Shown piece by piece: positions 4,107-42,269 of a DNA stretch of 64,000 nt; position 1 is the stretch's first letter, and every line of letters starts with the position of its first letter. The stretch is from assembly GCA_905234985.1 (NCBI GenBank), contig CAJOJQ010000013.1, positions 1-64,000 on the forward strand. Direction: 5' to 3'. Below the pieces are notes generated by a model, which made no database searches, was not told the origin of the DNA, and was given only the letters and a program-made list of their open reading frames with translations. Origin of the DNA: an uncultured Christensenellaceae bacterium. Its GTDB lineage: Bacteria > Bacillota > Clostridia > Christensenellales > Aristaeellaceae. Position numbers and translations under genes: made by a program.

Positions 4107-5481
4107 TTTTTCTCGCATTTTGATTTAATGGGTCGTTTAAAATGATCTTCTCCGGCGCTTGCGCCCTCGGCTTCATGGGGTTCAGCATGCAGAAGTACCG
4201 CCATTCGTCCGCCGCGTGATCCTCCATGGTGCTGTCCAGGTCCTCCGGCACGTGATCGTCGAACCGGAGCGCCGGAACGGTGCGGATGAAGGCCCGGCAG
4301 GTATTGAACACGTACATCATGGGGTAGCCGTTTCCGTCGAAGGCCAGCCGGTAATGGCACTGCATCCAGCCGGGGATGCGGTCGTTGTTCCCTTTCTCGA
4401 AGTACACCCGATGGCGGACCGCCGTATCGTACCGGCTGATCCCGTTTTCCGCTCCGGCCCAGATGCTGGGATCGGCCACGCCCTGGACGCGCTTGCCCTT
4501 GAGCCAGGGATGCTCCCGCTCGATCCGCGCGATTTCCGAAAAAATCCTGTCGTCGATCCACTTTACGCCCTCGTTGGGCACGTCCTCTCCGTGATCCTGG
4601 CGGCAGCCATACAATTCCAGGATGCGGTAGAACACCCCGTCGCAGTCGACGGCCCACCAGCCGCAGGAAAAGGGCCGGGCATAGCCCCAATCGAAGCTGC
4701 GGTATATTTTCCAGCCGGGAGGCGGCGCAAAGGGCGGGATCACGTGGGTGAATTTCCTGTCCGCGTAATGGGCGGGGTCGTCCCGGAATTCCTCGAAGAA
4801 CTGGCCCTCGTACACGTCCCAGTTGCCGTGGAGCCAGGCTTCCCGCTGACGGGGCGGCTGGGCCTTCAACTGCTCGATGTAGTCCGGCTGCTTTTCCATG
4901 AGGGCCTTGTTGTCCGTCACCAGGCTTTGGATGAACACGTAGTCCGCCGGGTTTTCATCGGAGCGAAAACGGCGTTCTTTCAAGCGCTTGATGTACTGGT
5001 GCCCCGGCCCGCCGGGGTTGCAGGTCATGTACATGCGTTTGGGAAAGCTGTTGGCCCCGCGCAGGCAGGCCATGACGGTTTTGATCTGGTATTCCGTCAT
5101 TTGGGTGGCCTCGTCGATGGCGATCACGTCGTACTCGTGGCCCTGGATCTTCATGAGGTCGCCGTCCTTTCCGCAGAACATGAACTTGATGCTGCTTCCG
5201 TTGGGAAAGCGGATCTCGTGGGTCAGGCTGTTGTACCGGGCCACGCCCGCCAATTGCGCCTGCAGGGGCTTGATGTGGTTTTCCAGCAGCTCCGGGTAGC
5301 TTTTGCGCATGATGAGGACGCGGATGCCGGGGTATTTTGCGCACAGCAGCACGGCCTTCCAGCGCACCGCCCAGCTTTTTCCGCCGCCTCGGGCCCCGCC
5401 GAAGATCACGTACTTTTCCCTGGCCCGCATGAACAGCATTTGCTTTTCGCTGGGCTGCTCCATGACCATTTCCCGGCTCAT
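4099..5481 (-). CDS. terL: Terminase large subunit (prophage 1)
   Basis: A 460-residue DNA-packaging motor and nuclease. The ATPase half carries a Walker A near residue 27 (FGGARGGGKSW), Walker B with catalytic Glu (VIAIDEATQMT) and the coupling motif TCNPGGPGHQ. The nuclease half shows acidic residues in RSFDWGYARPF and GVADPSIW. ATG 5481 overlaps the TerS stop by four bases (ATGA), which fixes the start; the same frame stays open further upstream but those bases code TerS. The C-terminus (NARKRS) ends in a heptamer repeat, so the repeat may have replaced the original end of the gene. Confidence 0.92.
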   Translation of the reverse strand: MSREMVMEQPSEKQMLFMRAREKYVIFGGARGGGKSWAVRWKAVLLCAKYPGIRVLIMRKSYPELLENHIKPLQAQLAGVARYNSLTHEIRFPNGSSIKFMFCGKDGDLMKIQGHEYDVIAIDEATQMTEYQIKTVMACLRGANSFPKRMYMTCNPGGPGHQYIKRLKERRFRSDENPADYVFIQSLVTDNKALMEKQPDYIEQLKAQPPRQREAWLHGNWDVYEGQFFEEFRDDPAHYADRKFTHVIPPFAPPPGWKIYRSFDWGYARPFSCGWWAVDCDGVFYRILELYGCRQDHGEDVPNEGVKWIDDRIFSEIARIEREHPWLKGKRVQGVADPSIWAGAENGISRYDTAVRHRVYFEKGNNDRIPGWMQCHYRLAFDGNGYPMMYVFNTCRAFIRTVPALRFDDHVPEDLDSTMEDHAADEWRYFCMLNPMKPRAQAPEKIILNDPLNQNARKRS

Positions 5482-36067: not shown

Positions 36068-36307
36068 ATGGCGAAGAGGAAGAAGACGGAAAATATATTC
36101 GCTGCCCTTGACCCGCTGAACGGCTACCCTGAAATGATGAGCGCCCAGGACATTGCGGAGTTCGCCGGGATCGCGGAGAGCAGCGCCCTCAAATGGATTC
36201 AGGAGCACGGGGGTGTGGTGGTGGTGAAGGGCAAGGTGCGCAACACCTGGCGGATCGCCAAGGAATATGTGCGGCAGGGCTTCAACCTGCCGAGGATTTC
36301 GGCGTAA
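36068..36307 (+). CDS. Helix-turn-helix protein, excisionase-like
   Basis: A 79-residue protein: a winged helix-turn-helix (MSAQDIAEFAGIAESSALKWIQEHGGVVVVKGKVRNTWRI) like DNA-binding excisionases or MerR-like factors. It could be the Xis partner of the integrase or a packaging/regulatory factor; context alone does not decide. ATG 36068 follows AAGGAAGG. Confidence 0.75.
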   Translation: MAKRKKTENIFAALDPLNGYPEMMSAQDIAEFAGIAESSALKWIQEHGGVVVVKGKVRNTWRIAKEYVRQGFNLPRISA

Positions 36308-36319
36308 GGAGGGGCGGCC

Positions 36320-36553
36320 ATGGACAGCGTGAACCGCTGCGTATGCTGCGCCAGCCCCATCCCGGAAGGGCGGCAGGTGTGCCACAATTGCGAAATGAAC
36401 TGCGGGAACTGTCAATGGCGCGCCCGCGGCCTGGACCCCTTTTGCGGAAACCCGAAAAGCCCACGGCACGGGGAGACCGTAACCCCGAGCGCTGGTGCCC
36501 GGCCTGGGATAAAGACAAATAACCGCCCCGGAAGGGGCGATACGCGGACGTGA
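36320..36553 (+). CDS. Small zinc-ribbon protein, end apparently frameshifted
   Basis: A 77-residue frame with CVCCASPIPEGRQVCHNCEMNCGNCQW, a zinc-ribbon of early phage proteins. Near 36490 the sequence turns into low-information text (SAGARPGIKTNN), while the neighbouring frame reads ERWCPAWDKDK and stops at 36522, a more natural Trp/Cys tail. A single-base change near 36490 would restore it. Either a sequencing error or a genuine frameshift. Confidence 0.6.
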   Translation: MDSVNRCVCCASPIPEGRQVCHNCEMNCGNCQWRARGLDPFCGNPKSPRHGETVTPSAGARPGIKTNNRPGRGDTRT

Positions 36554-36626
36554 TTGGCTGAAAGACTGCCAATGGCAAACGGCTGAAAAAACGCCGCTCC
36601 CGGTTCAAATCCGGGCGTCCGCGCCA
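36544..36626 (+). ncRNA. tRNA-like element 1
   Basis: Acceptor stem GCGGACG (36544-36550) / CGTCCGC (36616-36622), T stem CCCGG/CCGGG around TTCAAAT, then G and CCA. A 6-bp ATTGGC/GCCAAT hairpin sits where a D arm would be, but the anticodon arm pairs only 4 bp and its loop is A-rich and too long. Acceptor and T arms are perfect; it is not a normal tRNA. Confidence 0.45.
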
Positions 36627-36715
36627 GCAGGCTGGAGCCTGCAAGTTCTCCTTTGATCTGGCAGCACGGAAAGACGGCCCCCGCCGCCGAAATTCCCCTC
36701 TCGGCGCGGGGTTAC
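36627..36715. other. Gene-free spacer with hairpins
   Basis: Holds GCAGGCT-GG-AGCCTGC (36627-36642) and a CGCCGA...TCGGCG pair. No gene is supported from 36554 to 37193. Confidence 0.5.
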
Positions 36716-36774
36716 GCGCGGGAATGGGCAAGGGACGGTGATCCTTCCGGGTTCGATCCCCGGCCCGCGCGCCA
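36716..36774 (+). ncRNA. tRNA-like element 2 (D-armless)
   Basis: 59 bases: acceptor GCGCGGG/CCCGCGC, anticodon-like stem AAGGG/TCCTT with a 7-base loop ACGGTGA, T stem CCGGG/CCCGG around TTCGATC, then G and CCA. There is no D arm and no variable loop. All three stems pair; the loop lacks the usual U before the anticodon. Confidence 0.45.
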
Positions 36775-36870
36775 GAAGATTGGTGCGCTGCACTTCTAAA
36801 GCAACTTCGCAAAAGCACAAAGAGGTGTGACAACTGGAAACAGACCGGTTGGCAGCCGGGAAAGACCGGC

Positions 36871-37145
36871 CCCGCAAGGGCGGGCGGATCATATCCGCCC
36901 TTACACGCGCCGCAGGGCGGCGCTGGCTCCTGGTGAGCCATGGGATGCACCCGCAAGATGGCGGGCGTTCCGGGATGCACCTGCAAGATGGCAGGCGTCC
37001 GAAAAATGGGTGATCGCCGCCAAGATGGGCGGATCACGGAAGCCGCACCTGCAAGATGGCAGGCGGCAGGATCGGGGAAACGGTGTATAGGGCACGCCGA
37101 GAAAAACCGATCAGCAGCCGGGAGCGGCGCTGCCAAGATGGGCAG
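36871..37145 (+). repeat. Array of five to six hairpins with invariant AAGATG loop
   Basis: Stems and loops: CCCGC-AAGG-GCGGG (36871), CCCGC-AAGATG-GCGGG (36950), CCTGC-AAGATG-GCAGG (36980), CCGCC-AAGATG-GGCGG (37017), CCTGC-AAGATG-GCAGG (37048), CTGCC-AAGATG-GGCAG (37130). The stems differ but always pair; several have lower stems. A GGGCGGAT/ATCCGCCC hairpin lies at 36882-36900. The array lies directly upstream of the primase gene. Confidence 0.75.
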
Positions 37146-37193
37146 ACGCGCCCGGTATTCTCATTCAAATGCTTCATGGGGAGCGGTGAAAAA

Positions 37194-39911
37194 GTGAATA
37201 TCAATGATTTCCTCAATTTGCTGGAGCCGCCCCGCAAGAAGCAGGACAGCAACGGGAGCTGGATATGCAAATGCCCCGCCCACGACGACAAGACGGAAAG
37301 CATGCACGTGAAGCTGGGCAAGAACAAGCGGGGGCAGGACATCATCCTGGTCAAGTGCTTCGCGGGGTGCGACAGGCTTTCCATCGTGCACGCCATGGGC
37401 CTGGAACAAAAAGACCTGACCTGCGGCGGGGAGGACGTTCCGCCCTGGGACGAAAGGGCGGTGAAGCAGGCAAAGCCCACCTATGAAAAGCGGAAGGCCC
37501 CGGAAAAGCCGCCGGAGAAGCCGGAAAAAAAGGCGGATCACGGCAGCAAGACCCTGGAAAAGACCTACCCCTACACGGACGAAAACGGGGTGCTGCTGTA
37601 CCAAGCTTGCCGGTACCGCTACCAGGACGGCACAAAAACCTTCCGCCAGCGGCGGCCCGACCCCAACCGACAAGGGGAATGGCTGTGGGACATGGGAGAA
37701 ACGCGCCTGGTGCTGTACCGGCTGCCGGAGGTGCTTCAAGCCATCAAGGACAAGAAGCCCGTATGGATCGCCGAGGGCGAAAAGGACGCGGACAACCTGG
37801 CCGCCCTGGGCCTGTGCGGCACCAGCGCCCCCATGGGCGCGGGCAAATGGAGCAAGGGCAGGTACACGGAGAGCCTGAAGGGCGCGATCTGCTACATCCT
37901 GCCGGACAACGACGAACCAGGCTGGCAGCATGCCAGGGACATCGCCCAGAGCTTAGACGGCGTGGCAGCCCACGCCCGGATACTCGACCTGAAGCGCATC
38001 TGGCCGGAAATCCCCAGCAAAAACGACGTTTCCGACCTGATCGCCCACTTAGGCGCGGACAAAGCCAAGGAAGCGCTGCTGAACCTTTCGACGGACAACA
38101 GCATCCAATACAGCGAGCTGGAAGGACTGTATGCCCGGATACCCGGCTACAGCATCGTGGGCGGGCGCATCTGCCAGATCAAGGAAAACACGGCGACGCC
38201 GCTGTGCAACTTTACCGCCCTGCCGGTGAGCGTGCTCACCCTGGACGACGGGCAGAGCGCGCAGAAACGGCTGCTGATCCGGGGCTGGACGGCAGCGGGC
38301 AAAGAGCTGCCGCCCGCCGCCGTGCCGGTGACACAGTTCCCGGCCATGGGGTGGGTATCGGAAAAATGGGACATCGCCGCCAACATCGCGCCGGGGAACA
38401 CGATCAAGGACAAGCTGCGGTTCGTGATCGCGGAGGTGGGCCGCATGACCGTGGAGCGCCGGACGGAATACACGCACACGGGCTGGCGCAAGATCAGCGG
38501 GAAATGGGCCTACCTGCACGGCGGCGGCGCCATCGGCGCGGACAACGTGAGCACCGCCCTGGAAGGGGCGCTGAACCAGTACCGCCTGGACGGGCAGGGA
38601 CACACGGCAAAGGAGGGATACAAAGAGAGCAGGAATTTGCTTGCGGTGATGAGCGGGCATGTGGCCGTGCCGCTGCTGTGCGCGGTTTTCCTGGCCCCGC
38701 TTCGCCACTTTCTCCAGGCGGCGGGCATCCAGCCCGGCTTCGCCGTTTTCCTGGTGGGCAAGGGCGGCGGGCGGAAAACCACCGCCGCGGCGCTGGCGCT
38801 TTCGCACTTCGGGAACTTCACCAGCCAGACCATGCCGGGGAGCTTCCACGACACGGCTAATAGTATCCGGCGCAAGGCGTTTAGCCTGAAGGACATGCCC
38901 CTGGTGGTGGACGACTACCACCCCACCAGCAGCCCTCAGGAGAAGCGCAAGATGGAGGGCATGGCCCAGGAGCTGGCCCGCGCCTTCGGCGACAACAGCG
39001 ACAGGGGGCGAATGAACGCTGACCGCACCTTGCAGCTGGCCCAGCCGCCAAGGTGCCTGGCCATCATGACCGGGGAGGACATGCCCAGCATCGGCGAAAG
39101 CGGGCTGGCGCGCTTCTTCGCGGTGAGGATGAAAGGCGAGGACGTGCCCATCGGGGAACGCCTGACCCAGGCCCAGGAAGCCGCCATGGCGGGCACCCTG
39201 CAAGCGGCCATGACCGGCTACATCCAATGGCTGATCGGCCAGGCGGACACCCTGCCCGACAGCCTGAAGGCCGAATGGCAGAAGCTGCGGGCGGAGGCCC
39301 GGCGGCGGCTGCCCAAGGAAAGCCACGCCCGGAACATGGGGGCCGTGGCGCACCTGATGCTGGGCTGGGAAATGATGCTGATGTACGGCTTCGCCCTGGG
39401 CGAAATCGGCAAGGATCAGCTGACGGCGGAAATTGAAAGCGCCTGGGCGGAGCTGATCCAAAGCGGCGAACAGCAGACCCGTGAAGCGGTGGAGGACACC
39501 CCGGAAAACGCCTTTATGGACTGCATTCGCGAGCTGCTGGGCAGCAAAAACGCATTTGTTAAGGACTTGAGCCTCAACCCCGAACAGGGCGCCCAGGGCG
39601 GCCCCGGGATGATCGGCTACCGGGACGAACAATGGTATATGCTGCTGCCGGACATGAGCTACAAGGCCGTGAACGAAACCATGGTGCGCCAGGGCACCCA
39701 GTTCCCGCTTTCCAAGCGGGGCGTGATGCGGGCGCTGAAGGAAGCGGGGATCACGGACTGCGACCCCGGCGGCGTGACAAGGGTGAAGCGGGTGGCCGGG
39801 CGGAGCATGCGGCTGCTGTTCATCCGGCGGCACCTGATCGACGGCGGCGATCCGCCGGCAGAGCAGACTGCGTTCACAGCCGTAACCGACGACCCGGACA
39901 ATCCATTCTGA
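37194..39911 (+). CDS. Phage primase-helicase (CHC2-Toprim-DUF927)
   Basis: A 905-residue replication protein. An N-terminal zinc finger (ICKCPAHDDKTESMHV...CFAGC) and a Toprim part (VWIAEGEKDADNLAALG, ILPDNDEPGWQHA) make the primase half, about residues 1-290. From about 300 a DUF927-type ATPase domain follows, with a P-loop-like VGKGGGRKTTAAALAL, VVDDYHP, CLAIMTGED and an arginine-finger-like GLARFFAVRMKG. It should prime and unwind phage DNA. GTG 37194 is chosen for GGGGAG ten bases upstream; ATG 37176 is possible. Confidence 0.88.
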   Translation: MNINDFLNLLEPPRKKQDSNGSWICKCPAHDDKTESMHVKLGKNKRGQDIILVKCFAGCDRLSIVHAMGLEQKDLTCGGEDVPPWDERAVKQAKPTYEKRKAPEKPPEKPEKKADHGSKTLEKTYPYTDENGVLLYQACRYRYQDGTKTFRQRRPDPNRQGEWLWDMGETRLVLYRLPEVLQAIKDKKPVWIAEGEKDADNLAALGLCGTSAPMGAGKWSKGRYTESLKGAICYILPDNDEPGWQHARDIAQSLDGVAAHARILDLKRIWPEIPSKNDVSDLIAHLGADKAKEALLNLSTDNSIQYSELEGLYARIPGYSIVGGRICQIKENTATPLCNFTALPVSVLTLDDGQSAQKRLLIRGWTAAGKELPPAAVPVTQFPAMGWVSEKWDIAANIAPGNTIKDKLRFVIAEVGRMTVERRTEYTHTGWRKISGKWAYLHGGGAIGADNVSTALEGALNQYRLDGQGHTAKEGYKESRNLLAVMSGHVAVPLLCAVFLAPLRHFLQAAGIQPGFAVFLVGKGGGRKTTAAALALSHFGNFTSQTMPGSFHDTANSIRRKAFSLKDMPLVVDDYHPTSSPQEKRKMEGMAQELARAFGDNSDRGRMNADRTLQLAQPPRCLAIMTGEDMPSIGESGLARFFAVRMKGEDVPIGERLTQAQEAAMAGTLQAAMTGYIQWLIGQADTLPDSLKAEWQKLRAEARRRLPKESHARNMGAVAHLMLGWEMMLMYGFALGEIGKDQLTAEIESAWAELIQSGEQQTREAVEDTPENAFMDCIRELLGSKNAFVKDLSLNPEQGAQGGPGMIGYRDEQWYMLLPDMSYKAVNETMVRQGTQFPLSKRGVMRALKEAGITDCDPGGVTRVKRVAGRSMRLLFIRRHLIDGGDPPAEQTAFTAVTDDPDNPF

Positions 39912-39939: not shown

Positions 39940-40155
39940 ATGGGCGGAACAACTTACAATTACTTCGGATGCAGGCGGCCGCGGACGGATACCGCGTACC
40001 GGCCGAACCCGCAATACATCCCCGAGCGGCTGAGCAATATCCGGCTCAGAAACCGGCTGTGCGTATCCGGCCCCAAGAAGTGCTCGGAGTGCAGGAGCTG
40101 CCGGTTCGGCCTGGAATGGCTGCGGCGGCACCCGGAAGGGGGCGCGGCGAAATGA
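39940..40155 (+). CDS. Small basic Cys-containing phage protein
   Basis: A 71-residue basic protein with CSECRSCRFG near residue 47 and an Arg/Tyr-rich N-terminus (CRRPRTDTAYRPNPQYIPE). Function unknown. GAGGAGGAAGAA precedes ATG 39940; its stop overlaps the next start by four bases (ATGA). Confidence 0.65.
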   Translation: MGGTTYNYFGCRRPRTDTAYRPNPQYIPERLSNIRLRNRLCVSGPKKCSECRSCRFGLEWLRRHPEGGAAK

Positions 40156-40526
40156 GCGACACCGACAACATGGCCATGGATCTGATTCGGGACGAAATGG
40201 CGAAGAACCACGACCGCCCGGAAATCGTGCTGCTGGGCGAATACCTGACGGAAAGGCTGCAAAAAGACCCCGGATTGGCGGCGGCTGTTTTGCAGCACAA
40301 AGCGCCGCTTGCGGCGGGCTTTGACGCTATCCGGGATCACGCCCGGAAGATCGCCCGGAACGGGAGCGCCTGCGTGGACGACAGGACGGGCTTCGCCCTG
40401 GCCTGCAAAAAATGGGGCATCCCGGCAGACGGGGACGCGCAAGCGCTTGCGCATGAACAGCCCGGAAGCGAACCGGGCGGCGTGGACGCGCTGGACCTGG
40501 ACGCGCTGCTGGCGTTGGGGGTGTGA
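40152..40526 (+). CDS. PcfK-like / AcrIIA9-family protein
   Basis: A 124-residue acidic helical protein. The pattern of an N-terminal MAMDLIRDEMAKNHDRPEI, a middle GFDAIRDHARKIARNG and an acidic end (DALDLDALLALGV) matches PcfK-like proteins as I recall them; this family includes AcrIIA9, an inhibitor of Cas9. It directly precedes the PcfJ gene, as in conjugative plasmids and Clostridia prophages. Whether this member inhibits Cas9 is unknown. Confidence 0.7.
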   Translation: MSDTDNMAMDLIRDEMAKNHDRPEIVLLGEYLTERLQKDPGLAAAVLQHKAPLAAGFDAIRDHARKIARNGSACVDDRTGFALACKKWGIPADGDAQALAHEQPGSEPGGVDALDLDALLALGV

Positions 40527-40529
40527 CGC

Positions 40530-42269
40530 ATGGAATTGGAAGAAGCATTGCGTCACGCGGGACCGATCTGGACAGGCGAGCGGCAGCACGATTTGGAACG
40601 CCGGGCGCGGCAGGCGTTGCCGCATTACCTGTTCACCTGGAAGGAAGGCGGGAAGAAAAAAGGCTACTGCACCTACTGCCTGAACACCGTAACCATCCGG
40701 CGGGAGGACATGATTCCGGACTATGTACGGGATGACCCTTACGCCGATGAGGAAGATAGCTTCCACCATCCGGAAAGGGCTTACGGCTTCGCGGGGCCGT
40801 ATCAGGGCTACAGCACTTTTGACCAAGCCGGACGATTTGACCAGAGCGGGAAGCACCTGCACTGGGGGGACTGCCCCTGCTGCGGCTGCCGCGCACAGTA
40901 CCGGGGAATGGGCATGGGAAGAAAGACGCTTTCTGACCGTGTGTTCCTGATCCAGTACCAAAAGAGCGCGGATGAGGAAAACGCCCTGGTGATGACGGGC
41001 TGGCTGGTGATCTGCGACTGGGGCAAGTGGAACGAATACGAACAGCGCCTGCCGGACCTCTACATGGATCTGCGGGAAGTGTGCGTGTTTCGGCCTGGGA
41101 TGAAGGGCGAGCGGTTTATCAAGCGGATTCTGTGGTTCGGCGAACAGCAGGAGGACGGAAAGCTGTTGCTGGCGCCGGACGCCTACTGGCAGCACCCAAA
41201 GCAATGCCATGGGGGCTTTGATCCCTGGGGCGGCTCTTACTGCTACAGGTTCGGTAACGCCGGGACGCGCTTCATGCGCGACGAGGAAACCATGGATGAA
41301 GCCCTGGCCGGAAGCTGGATGGAGCCGCTTTGGTATCTGTGGAAGGACGAAATCAACCTGGACTGCATCACCTGGATGGAAAACATGACGCGCTACCCCT
41401 GCGCGGAATACTTCTTTAAGCTGGGCCTCGCGTCCCTGCTGCGTGACCTGGCTTTTGGGGATATGGCAGGGCATCTGCTGAACCACCGGGGCAAAACTGC
41501 TCAGAAGGTGCTGCGGGTGGACGGGGATTTCTGGGGCTGGATCAAGGGAAATCACGTGGATGTAAGCCAGGCGCTGCTGAAGCTGTACCAGGCTGGAAGA
41601 AAGCTGAAGCTCAGGATCGGGAACGACAAGCTGCTGCGGCTTTCCAAGGCCCTGTCACCGGAAAACCTGAACGTGCTGAATGAAAAGGTGGGCCGGGAGA
41701 ACTTAGAAAAGACGCTGAATTACATCCTGAAAAAGAATCTCGCCTACTTTGATTACCGGGATCACCTACAGGTGATGGAGGAATTGGATATGCCGCTTCG
41801 GGACCCGGCCATGCTGTGGCCCAAGGATTTTCAGGCACTGCATACCGAGCTTTCTAACCGGGTGAAGATCCGGGCCAGCGCAAAAAAGGCGGCGGAAATG
41901 GAAAAGCGCACCGACGCGCTATCCTCCTGGTGGTTCAGCGCGCTGGGCCTAAGCATCCGGCCCTTTCTCACCCCGGAGGAAATCGTTCGGGAGGGAAGCG
42001 AAATGCGCCACTGCGTGGGCACCTACGTGCAGCGCTACGCAAGCGGCGGCACGGTGCTGCTGGCCCTGCGGGAGGACGAGCGCCCCGGAAAGCCCTTTCG
42101 CACGGTGGAATACACGCCGAAGGGCCAGCTGGTGCAGTGCCGGGGATACCGGAACAAAAGCCCGGAGGACGAACAGCCCCGGATCGACGAATTTTTCCGG
42201 CTGTTCGACGCCTACCGGGCGGAATATGAAAGACTGAACGGGAAGAAGAAAGGAAGGTGGGCGGCATGA
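40530..42269 (+). CDS. PcfJ domain-containing protein
   Basis: A 579-residue protein. An N-terminal zinc-finger-like part (YCTYCLNTV...CPCCGCRAQYRG) leads into a long unclassified middle, and the C-terminal 200 residues show the PcfJ signature GSEMRHCVGTYVQRYASGG, followed by LALREDERPGKPFRTVEY and CRGYRNKSPED. PcfJ-family roles are unknown; proteins like this occur with PcfK in mobile elements. It overlaps the next gene by four bases. Confidence 0.82.
   Translation: MELEEALRHAGPIWTGERQHDLERRARQALPHYLFTWKEGGKKKGYCTYCLNTVTIRREDMIPDYVRDDPYADEEDSFHHPERAYGFAGPYQGYSTFDQAGRFDQSGKHLHWGDCPCCGCRAQYRGMGMGRKTLSDRVFLIQYQKSADEENALVMTGWLVICDWGKWNEYEQRLPDLYMDLREVCVFRPGMKGERFIKRILWFGEQQEDGKLLLAPDAYWQHPKQCHGGFDPWGGSYCYRFGNAGTRFMRDEETMDEALAGSWMEPLWYLWKDEINLDCITWMENMTRYPCAEYFFKLGLASLLRDLAFGDMAGHLLNHRGKTAQKVLRVDGDFWGWIKGNHVDVSQALLKLYQAGRKLKLRIGNDKLLRLSKALSPENLNVLNEKVGRENLEKTLNYILKKNLAYFDYRDHLQVMEELDMPLRDPAMLWPKDFQALHTELSNRVKIRASAKKAAEMEKRTDALSSWWFSALGLSIRPFLTPEEIVREGSEMRHCVGTYVQRYASGGTVLLALREDERPGKPFRTVEYTPKGQLVQCRGYRNKSPEDEQPRIDEFFRLFDAYRAEYERLNGKKKGRWAA

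Follow-up and report, generated by a model that had tools for sequence, protein, structure and literature searches.

Tandem hairpins with a conserved AAGATG loop and covarying stems, a candidate leader RNA element, precede the primase-helicase gene of related prophages

The window, the whole stretch of 64,000 nucleotides analysed here, lies on contig C13 of an uncultured Christensenellaceae bacterium (genome G000, 3.57 Mb in 97 contigs). A prophage occupies ~29-63 kb of the window, where PHROGs matches mark an integrase, a terminase, a portal, a major head protein and a primase. The primase-helicase gene (37194-39911, + strand) has PHROG DNA primase matches and matches Pfam DUF927, and its GTG start at 37194 was picked by comparison with relatives. 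A small HTH-like protein, called by eye and without a PHROG match, is encoded at 36068-36307 on the + strand. On the other side of the primase, a PcfK-like and a PcfJ-like gene (40152-42269 together; the PcfJ-like gene at 40530-42269, + strand) lie within the replication cluster, the PcfK-like gene being named from its position beside PcfJ. PcfK and PcfJ genes are known from conjugative plasmids. The literature matches listed for PcfJ contained nothing pertinent and appear to concern pCFJ plasmids of C. elegans research or other subjects. The closest primases on named contigs belong to the uncultured Clostridiales MAGs RUG10975 and RUG563, and from these isolate names we presume that the host and the related MAGs come from the rumen.

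The stretch ahead of the primase, which an earlier note on this DNA had called gene-free, contains no evident protein gene, but its part at ~36550-36775 holds two degenerate tRNA-like elements. Five tandem hairpins with the loop AAGATG follow on the + strand, the strand of the primase gene, each with a fully Watson-Crick stem of 5 bp. Hairpin 1 (CCCGC/GCGGG) is located at 36950-36965, hairpin 2 (CCTGC/GCAGG) at 36980-36995, hairpin 3 (CCGCC/GGCGG) at 37017-37032, hairpin 4 (CCTGC/GCAGG) at 37048-37063 and hairpin 5 (CTGCC/GGCAG) at 37130-37145, and the GTG start codon begins 48 nt after the end of hairpin 5. The pairing of the 5-bp stems described in the earlier note holds, but hairpins 1-4 are predicted in some folds to be more than bare stems: a 5'-side bulge of 2 nt separates a lower stem of 5-7 bp from an upper stem of 4 bp, which bears the hexaloop. 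Including the lower stem and the bulge, hairpins 1, 2 and 4 span ~36942-36971, ~36973-37000 and ~37042-37067 with an AC bulge, and hairpin 3 spans ~37010-37037 with a GC bulge and the lower stem GTGATC/GATCAC. Hairpin 3 sometimes pairs as 5+5, hairpin 5 is without the 5' bulge, and the bulge letters of one relative are CC. A sixth hairpin with the loop AAGG (36871-36884), previously counted with these five, was excluded from the array because its right arm enters a dispersed repeat of the host genome and no such hairpin was found near the array in three related sequences (L009, L010 and L014).

Clusters of this kind are not expected by chance. The largest cluster of same-loop hairpins in the window (6-nt loop, 5 Watson-Crick pairs, within 250 nt) has five members on the + strand, compared with one member in 59 and two members in one of 60 dinucleotide shuffles. 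The sequence CAAGATGG occurs eight times, five of them inside the array, against a shuffle mean of 2.73, and none of 100 shuffles reached eight occurrences. No further AAGATG hairpins (at least 4 bp, G-U allowed) were found on either strand of the whole 64-kb window. On either strand, the 421-nt stretch at 36780-37200 folds better than its shuffles (z -4.3 and -4.5), and the folding energy therefore cannot tell the strand.

Primase relatives were found in 33 of 300 family genomes (E 0.001), four of which are known to carry the array. The carriers are the genomes G000, G248, G134 and G260 and the IMG/VR contigs L009 and L010; here L011 and L014 are counted as one contig (G248), L012 and L016 as another (G134), and the array of L010, which agrees with that of L012 down to its positions, is counted with it. 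Five distinct arrays result, with five hairpins in the window, L009 and L011, four in L010 and six in L015, and the orthologous primases behind them are 70-97% identical. The location ahead of the primase is thus a feature of five distinct prophage versions. The loop is AAGATG in 24 of the 25 hairpins and AGGATG in one hairpin of L010. The hairpins of L015 are spaced by 26-27 nt; A-C mismatches are found in three of the six and a G-G mismatch in one, owing to which only two pass a strict contiguous-stem criterion. An accessory hairpin of the window (37081-37099, + strand; loop ATAGGGC, stem CGGTGT/ACGCCG) keeps its loop in L015 with the stem changed to CTGTGG/CCGCAG, and keeps its stem in L010 with a loop one base longer. 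In L010, a dispersed repeat (ACCTCATCCGGC...CCTTCCCCT...; 4764-4810, with further copies) apparently occupies the place of hairpin 2. A piece related to this repeat was also observed inside the L016 primase reading frame, near the start of the longer match.

Further elements surround the array. The first tRNA-like element of the window (36550-36626, + strand) was recognised by eye from an acceptor stem, a T-arm and CCA, and the second, shorter one (36712-36775, + strand) from an 8-bp acceptor stem, a T-arm and CCA; neither was called by ARAGORN or at the Rfam gathering cut-offs. A phage tRNA cluster is located before the array in L009 (3806-3940, 4301-4385 and 4577-4635) and L011 (3530-3603 and 4262-4336), with two tRNAs called by both ARAGORN and Rfam in L011 and one Rfam tRNA with ~65 bases in the anticodon region in L009. 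Several of the tRNA-like elements, judged by eye, have the acceptor stem, T-arm and CCA and are missing a normal anticodon arm, and the shortest presumably resembles an RNase P minihelix substrate. The element at 36550-36626 is not a necessary part of the system, since none was seen in L015. A second recurrent hairpin, with the loop GAAAGA and the stems GCCGG/CCGGC, ACCGG/CCGGT or GCCG/CGGC, occurs near the tRNA-like elements (window 36855-36870; L009 4279, 4523 and 4715; L011 3641, 4223, 4492 and 4662; L010 4662). A palindromic repeat, GGGCGGAT-N3-ATCCGCCC, after which CTACA/CTACG or TTACA usually stands, is dispersed in the host genome and also present in the prophage leader (window 36882-36911; L002-L008; L011 2200, 3170 and 4691). 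The repeat that the AAGG hairpin enters has nine other places in the host genome among the matches listed.

The array is narrow in range within what was searched. The hairpin model R1, built from 17 of the array hairpins, recovers all 25 hairpins of the five arrays, as expected by construction. Over 37 sources, it matched beyond the array hairpins only two weak sites in the window (E 0.26 and 0.85). Over 29 genus genomes, with 150 candidates scored per genome of ~1300-2800, clusters were found only in G000, G134, G248 and G260, and the single matches in other genus genomes (E 0.05-0.5) look like chance. On the question raised by the earlier note, whether other genomes carry such hairpins beside primases, the array was found before the orthologous primase of other prophages. 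No AAGATG array was found within the flanks examined at more distant primase loci (~50% identity or less). At seven loci (L017, L019, L020, L021, L022, L024 and L031), an upstream reading frame, judged by eye, ends shortly 5' of the primase, leaving no space for an array. At E 1e-150 or better, the primase was matched in five of 386 order genomes and one of 391 class genomes, none of them new at high identity.

Pattern searches gave a similar picture. Of 78 IMG/VR contigs with three copies of CAAGATGG, a single one bears the array, namely L046, which is the L009 contig; none of the other 77 has more than three AAGATG hairpins (at least 4 bp, G-U allowed), and most of them look like tandem repeats inside genes. 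L069 has three AAGATG hairpins, all with one stem. The two-copy pattern occurs in at least 80 contigs, and among the contigs listed, neighbouring CAAGATGG pairs each adding at least two stem pairs were found in L046 (four each) and weakly in L229 (two each). The conserved side pieces of the array match L046, L289 and L290 (the L010 contig), and L289 has no AAGATG hairpin despite this match. In genomes, the three-copy pattern, which misses G134 as its copies are too widely spaced, was found in three of 308 of the family and one of 396 of the order, the latter being the window's own. GenBank phages and plasmids gave no DNA match to the array. A scan of L001-L042 and L129-L210 for arrays with other loops (three or more Watson-Crick stems, all different and each of at least 4 bp, within 500 nt; loops of 4-8 nt) is strict enough to fail on the array of L015, so that imperfect arrays could escape it; beyond the AAGATG array it returned L133, L142, L151, L154, L178, L179 and one 4-nt loop inside the L009 primase gene. 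The match in L151 falls, by eye, in coding sequence.

The neighbouring genes follow the array among the compared loci. The HTH-like protein, the PcfK-like protein and the PcfJ-like protein are each present in all four other array-carrying contigs and in none, one (partial) and none of the 14 non-carriers, respectively, and PcfJ was found with the array alone. However, the carriers form one clade, for which common ancestry alone would yield this pattern, and several of the 14 non-carrier contigs are short.

Comparisons of the hairpins showed that the stems change in matched pairs around a fixed loop, as the earlier note had recognised within the window. Alignment A2 comprises 11 hairpins in 10 distinct rows (hairpins 1-4 and their relatives; hairpin 5 and L015 left out), with 97% of the cells paired and two-sided changes in seven of the ten pairs. 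Its covariation is 0.640 compared with 0.155 after shuffling (0/500), is carried by the bulged form of hairpins 1-4, and registers slid by 1-3 columns leave 30-51% of the cells paired. Alignment A3 comprises 17 hairpins of four versions over five core pairs, leaving out between-version repeats and hairpin 4 of L015, and shows 96.5% pairing and a covariation of 0.853 compared with 0.169 (0/500). Both values are far above the shuffles, which ignore the kinship of the sequences; the number of pairs with two-sided changes in A3 is not above shuffles (346/500) and is uninformative. Orthologous hairpins show the same directly: the stem changes from CTGC/GCAG to CGGC/GCCG in hairpin 2, from CGCC/GGCG to TGGC/GCCA in hairpin 3 and from TGCC/GGCA to GGGC/GCCC in hairpin 5. 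The identity at fourfold sites of the primase is 0.64-0.66 among three lineages (window/L009/L014, L010 and L015; ~0.43 at random), indicating that the loops were kept over real divergence.

Hairpins 1, 2 and 4 are alike (93% and 74% over 27 nt), so that duplication probably built the array, and selection then kept it. Tandem duplication of a functionless palindromic unit, whether selfish or neutral, is improbable as the whole explanation. It would fit the likeness of these copies and the dispersed repeats in and near the leader, but it is already disfavoured by the covariation, as orthologous hairpins changed in matched pairs with the loop kept and do not look like a recent duplication free of selection. 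Moreover, R1 gives in the window's genome the five array hairpins and one weak match (E 0.93; 150 of 2521 candidates scored).

The pattern of wobble pairs bears on the strand and the molecule. On the + strand, A2 contains six G-U and no A-C cells, and A3 contains four G-U cells, all in L015, and two A-C cells in L015 rows. This test has few independent events, which, with the A-C and G-G mismatches of L015, counts against a leader RNA. A simple scan found no terminator-like site on the + strand at 36250-37400, and a sigma-70 consensus scan found no promoter-like site upstream of the array. Some of the six frames are open in the five versions; a coding explanation was rejected because indels displace the frames from one lineage to another and, in hairpin 5, the encoded residues differ after the two-sided change. 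The excess of G-U over A-C, the lack of a terminator-like site and the unconserved frame favour a 5' leader RNA over a peptide or a signal in DNA, and support the array as a putative non-coding RNA in the primase-sense direction.

The hairpins could instead form in single-stranded DNA during phage replication, where the neighbouring primase-helicase would enter or prime at them as at the single-strand initiation hairpins of some plasmids; we consider this unlikely. The array does precede the primase directly and goes with one primase clade, its loop and stem pattern fits single-stranded DNA as well as RNA, and the opposite strand folds as strongly relative to shuffles. However, an excess of G-U over A-C on the + strand is not favoured by DNA, related primases are found at other loci with no such array in front, and the G+C content of 0.56-0.68 per 200 nt across 36.0-38.2 kb shows no AT-rich unwinding region.

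We tentatively regard as most likely a multivalent array that binds protein and thereby controls the replication operon. CsrB, MS2 and boxB are established cases of protein-recognised RNA hairpins. The gp43 operators and the ANTAR targets are others (PMC3014915, PMC3369931). The fixed loop, the free stems, the bulge and the several copies of the array resemble such hairpins and for this reason favour protein binding. The transcript of the prophage replication operon would have a 5' leader that includes the array, and there five tandem hairpins would show an identical AAGAUG loop, four of them atop a 2-nt bulge. One RNA-binding protein, encoded by the phage or the host, would bind the hairpins cooperatively, and this binding would set the amount of primase, plausibly by altering the fold that holds the primase ribosome-binding site. 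The sequence GGCTCCTGGTGAGCC (36925-36939, + strand), which is identical in the window, L009, L014 and L010, is predicted to fold into a local hairpin or to pair with the Shine-Dalgarno region (~37178-37186), an alternative pairing that might act as a switch. The core Shine-Dalgarno bases are predicted to be paired in the window, L009 and L014, more weakly in L010 and weakly in L015. The form of this pairing, long-range in the window and local in L009 and L014, differs between the relatives and has no covariation support, which weighs against the leader RNA reading.

The binding protein may also be the phage's own primase-helicase, metering its own synthesis by binding cooperatively to the four to six hairpins of its leader RNA or, at the level of DNA, using the hairpins as multiple single-stranded priming sites. 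We regard this as possible though doubtful on the sequence evidence. We know of no described case of either form of recognition, and a primase recognising tandem structured sites would represent an undescribed kind of primase-nucleic-acid recognition.

A leader that binds protein in cis can be compared with several known systems. In the sponge RNAs CsrB and RsmZ, many hairpins offer one loop motif to one protein. The array, in contrast, lies in cis before a gene, and its AAGAUG loop is without GGA, the CsrA motif; GGA is absent from 24 of the 25 loops and present in the lone AGGATG loop of L010. A trans-acting sponge or decoy RNA that titrates a host or phage protein in the manner of CsrB, perhaps cut at the flanking tRNA-like elements, is somewhat less likely still than a single-stranded DNA signal. 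In its favour, each RNA would hold between four and six hairpins that share a loop code, and tRNA-like elements lie upstream in the window, L009, L011 and L010; against it, no tRNA-like element was seen (by eye) in front of the L015 array, and no terminator-like site was found 3' of the array in the window. The single-strand initiation hairpins of IncQ plasmids are sites tied to a specific primase; to our knowledge, they are not arrays of this kind, and the wobble pattern of the array points to RNA instead. The P4 alpha-operon leader, with its CI RNA, is a structured leader before a phage primase-helicase operon and acts by antisense pairing. A corresponding recognition, in which a host or phage RNA complementary to the loops pairs with them, would account for the exact loop conservation, yet we give it little credence, as CCATCTTG, the 8-base complement of CAAGATGG, is absent from the + strand of the 64-kb window. 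The 6-mer CATCTT occurs there ten times.

The array probably represents an undescribed RNA control element, in line with the remark of the earlier note that it knew of no such element. Rfam gave no matches in the window at the gathering cut-offs (lowest E 0.11 in 36250-37300) and, with matches down to E 0.5 admitted, nothing but tRNAs in L009 and L011; in searches of the openly licensed literature, no listed title or abstract start describes such an element. It is a covarying structured element that goes with a single phage replication module, and its code is simple and testable: fixed hexaloop, free stems and 5' bulge. A protein partner, if found, would make it a naturally occurring multivalent set of RNA hairpins, with uses like those of the MS2 or boxB hairpins, and would reveal the means by which the replication operon of a temperate phage from rumen Clostridia is controlled.

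The closest likenesses are to two protein-recognised RNAs. The T4/RB69 gp43 operator, which serves autogenous control, shares with the array a hairpin with a conserved loop, placed ahead of the start codon of a phage gene for replication; however, it is a single hairpin with a UAAC loop and belongs to a DNA polymerase (PMC3014915), whereas the array has several AAGATG hairpins and belongs to a primase. The ANTAR target RNAs share tandem small hexaloop hairpins in a leader RNA, with conserved loop letters and variable stems, and are described as paired stem-loops with a terminator exclusive with the second hairpin (PMC3369931). The array differs in the number of its hairpins (four to six), many of which have a 2-nt bulge, and in that no terminator-like site overlaps any hairpin. 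Loop position 1 is A in all 17 hairpins of A3 and in the other eight of the 25, in agreement with the ANTAR rule, but position 4 is A in all 17 instead of the conserved G (PMC3369931). The array is therefore not an ANTAR target as defined, and that an ANTAR-type antiterminator protein recognises it is very improbable, although the host has one ANTAR match, beside an ORF that by eye resembles glutamine synthetase. The array may nevertheless work like an ANTAR target, and by analogy it would belong to a known kind of element, the structured leader with repeated, presumably protein-binding hairpins of one loop code.
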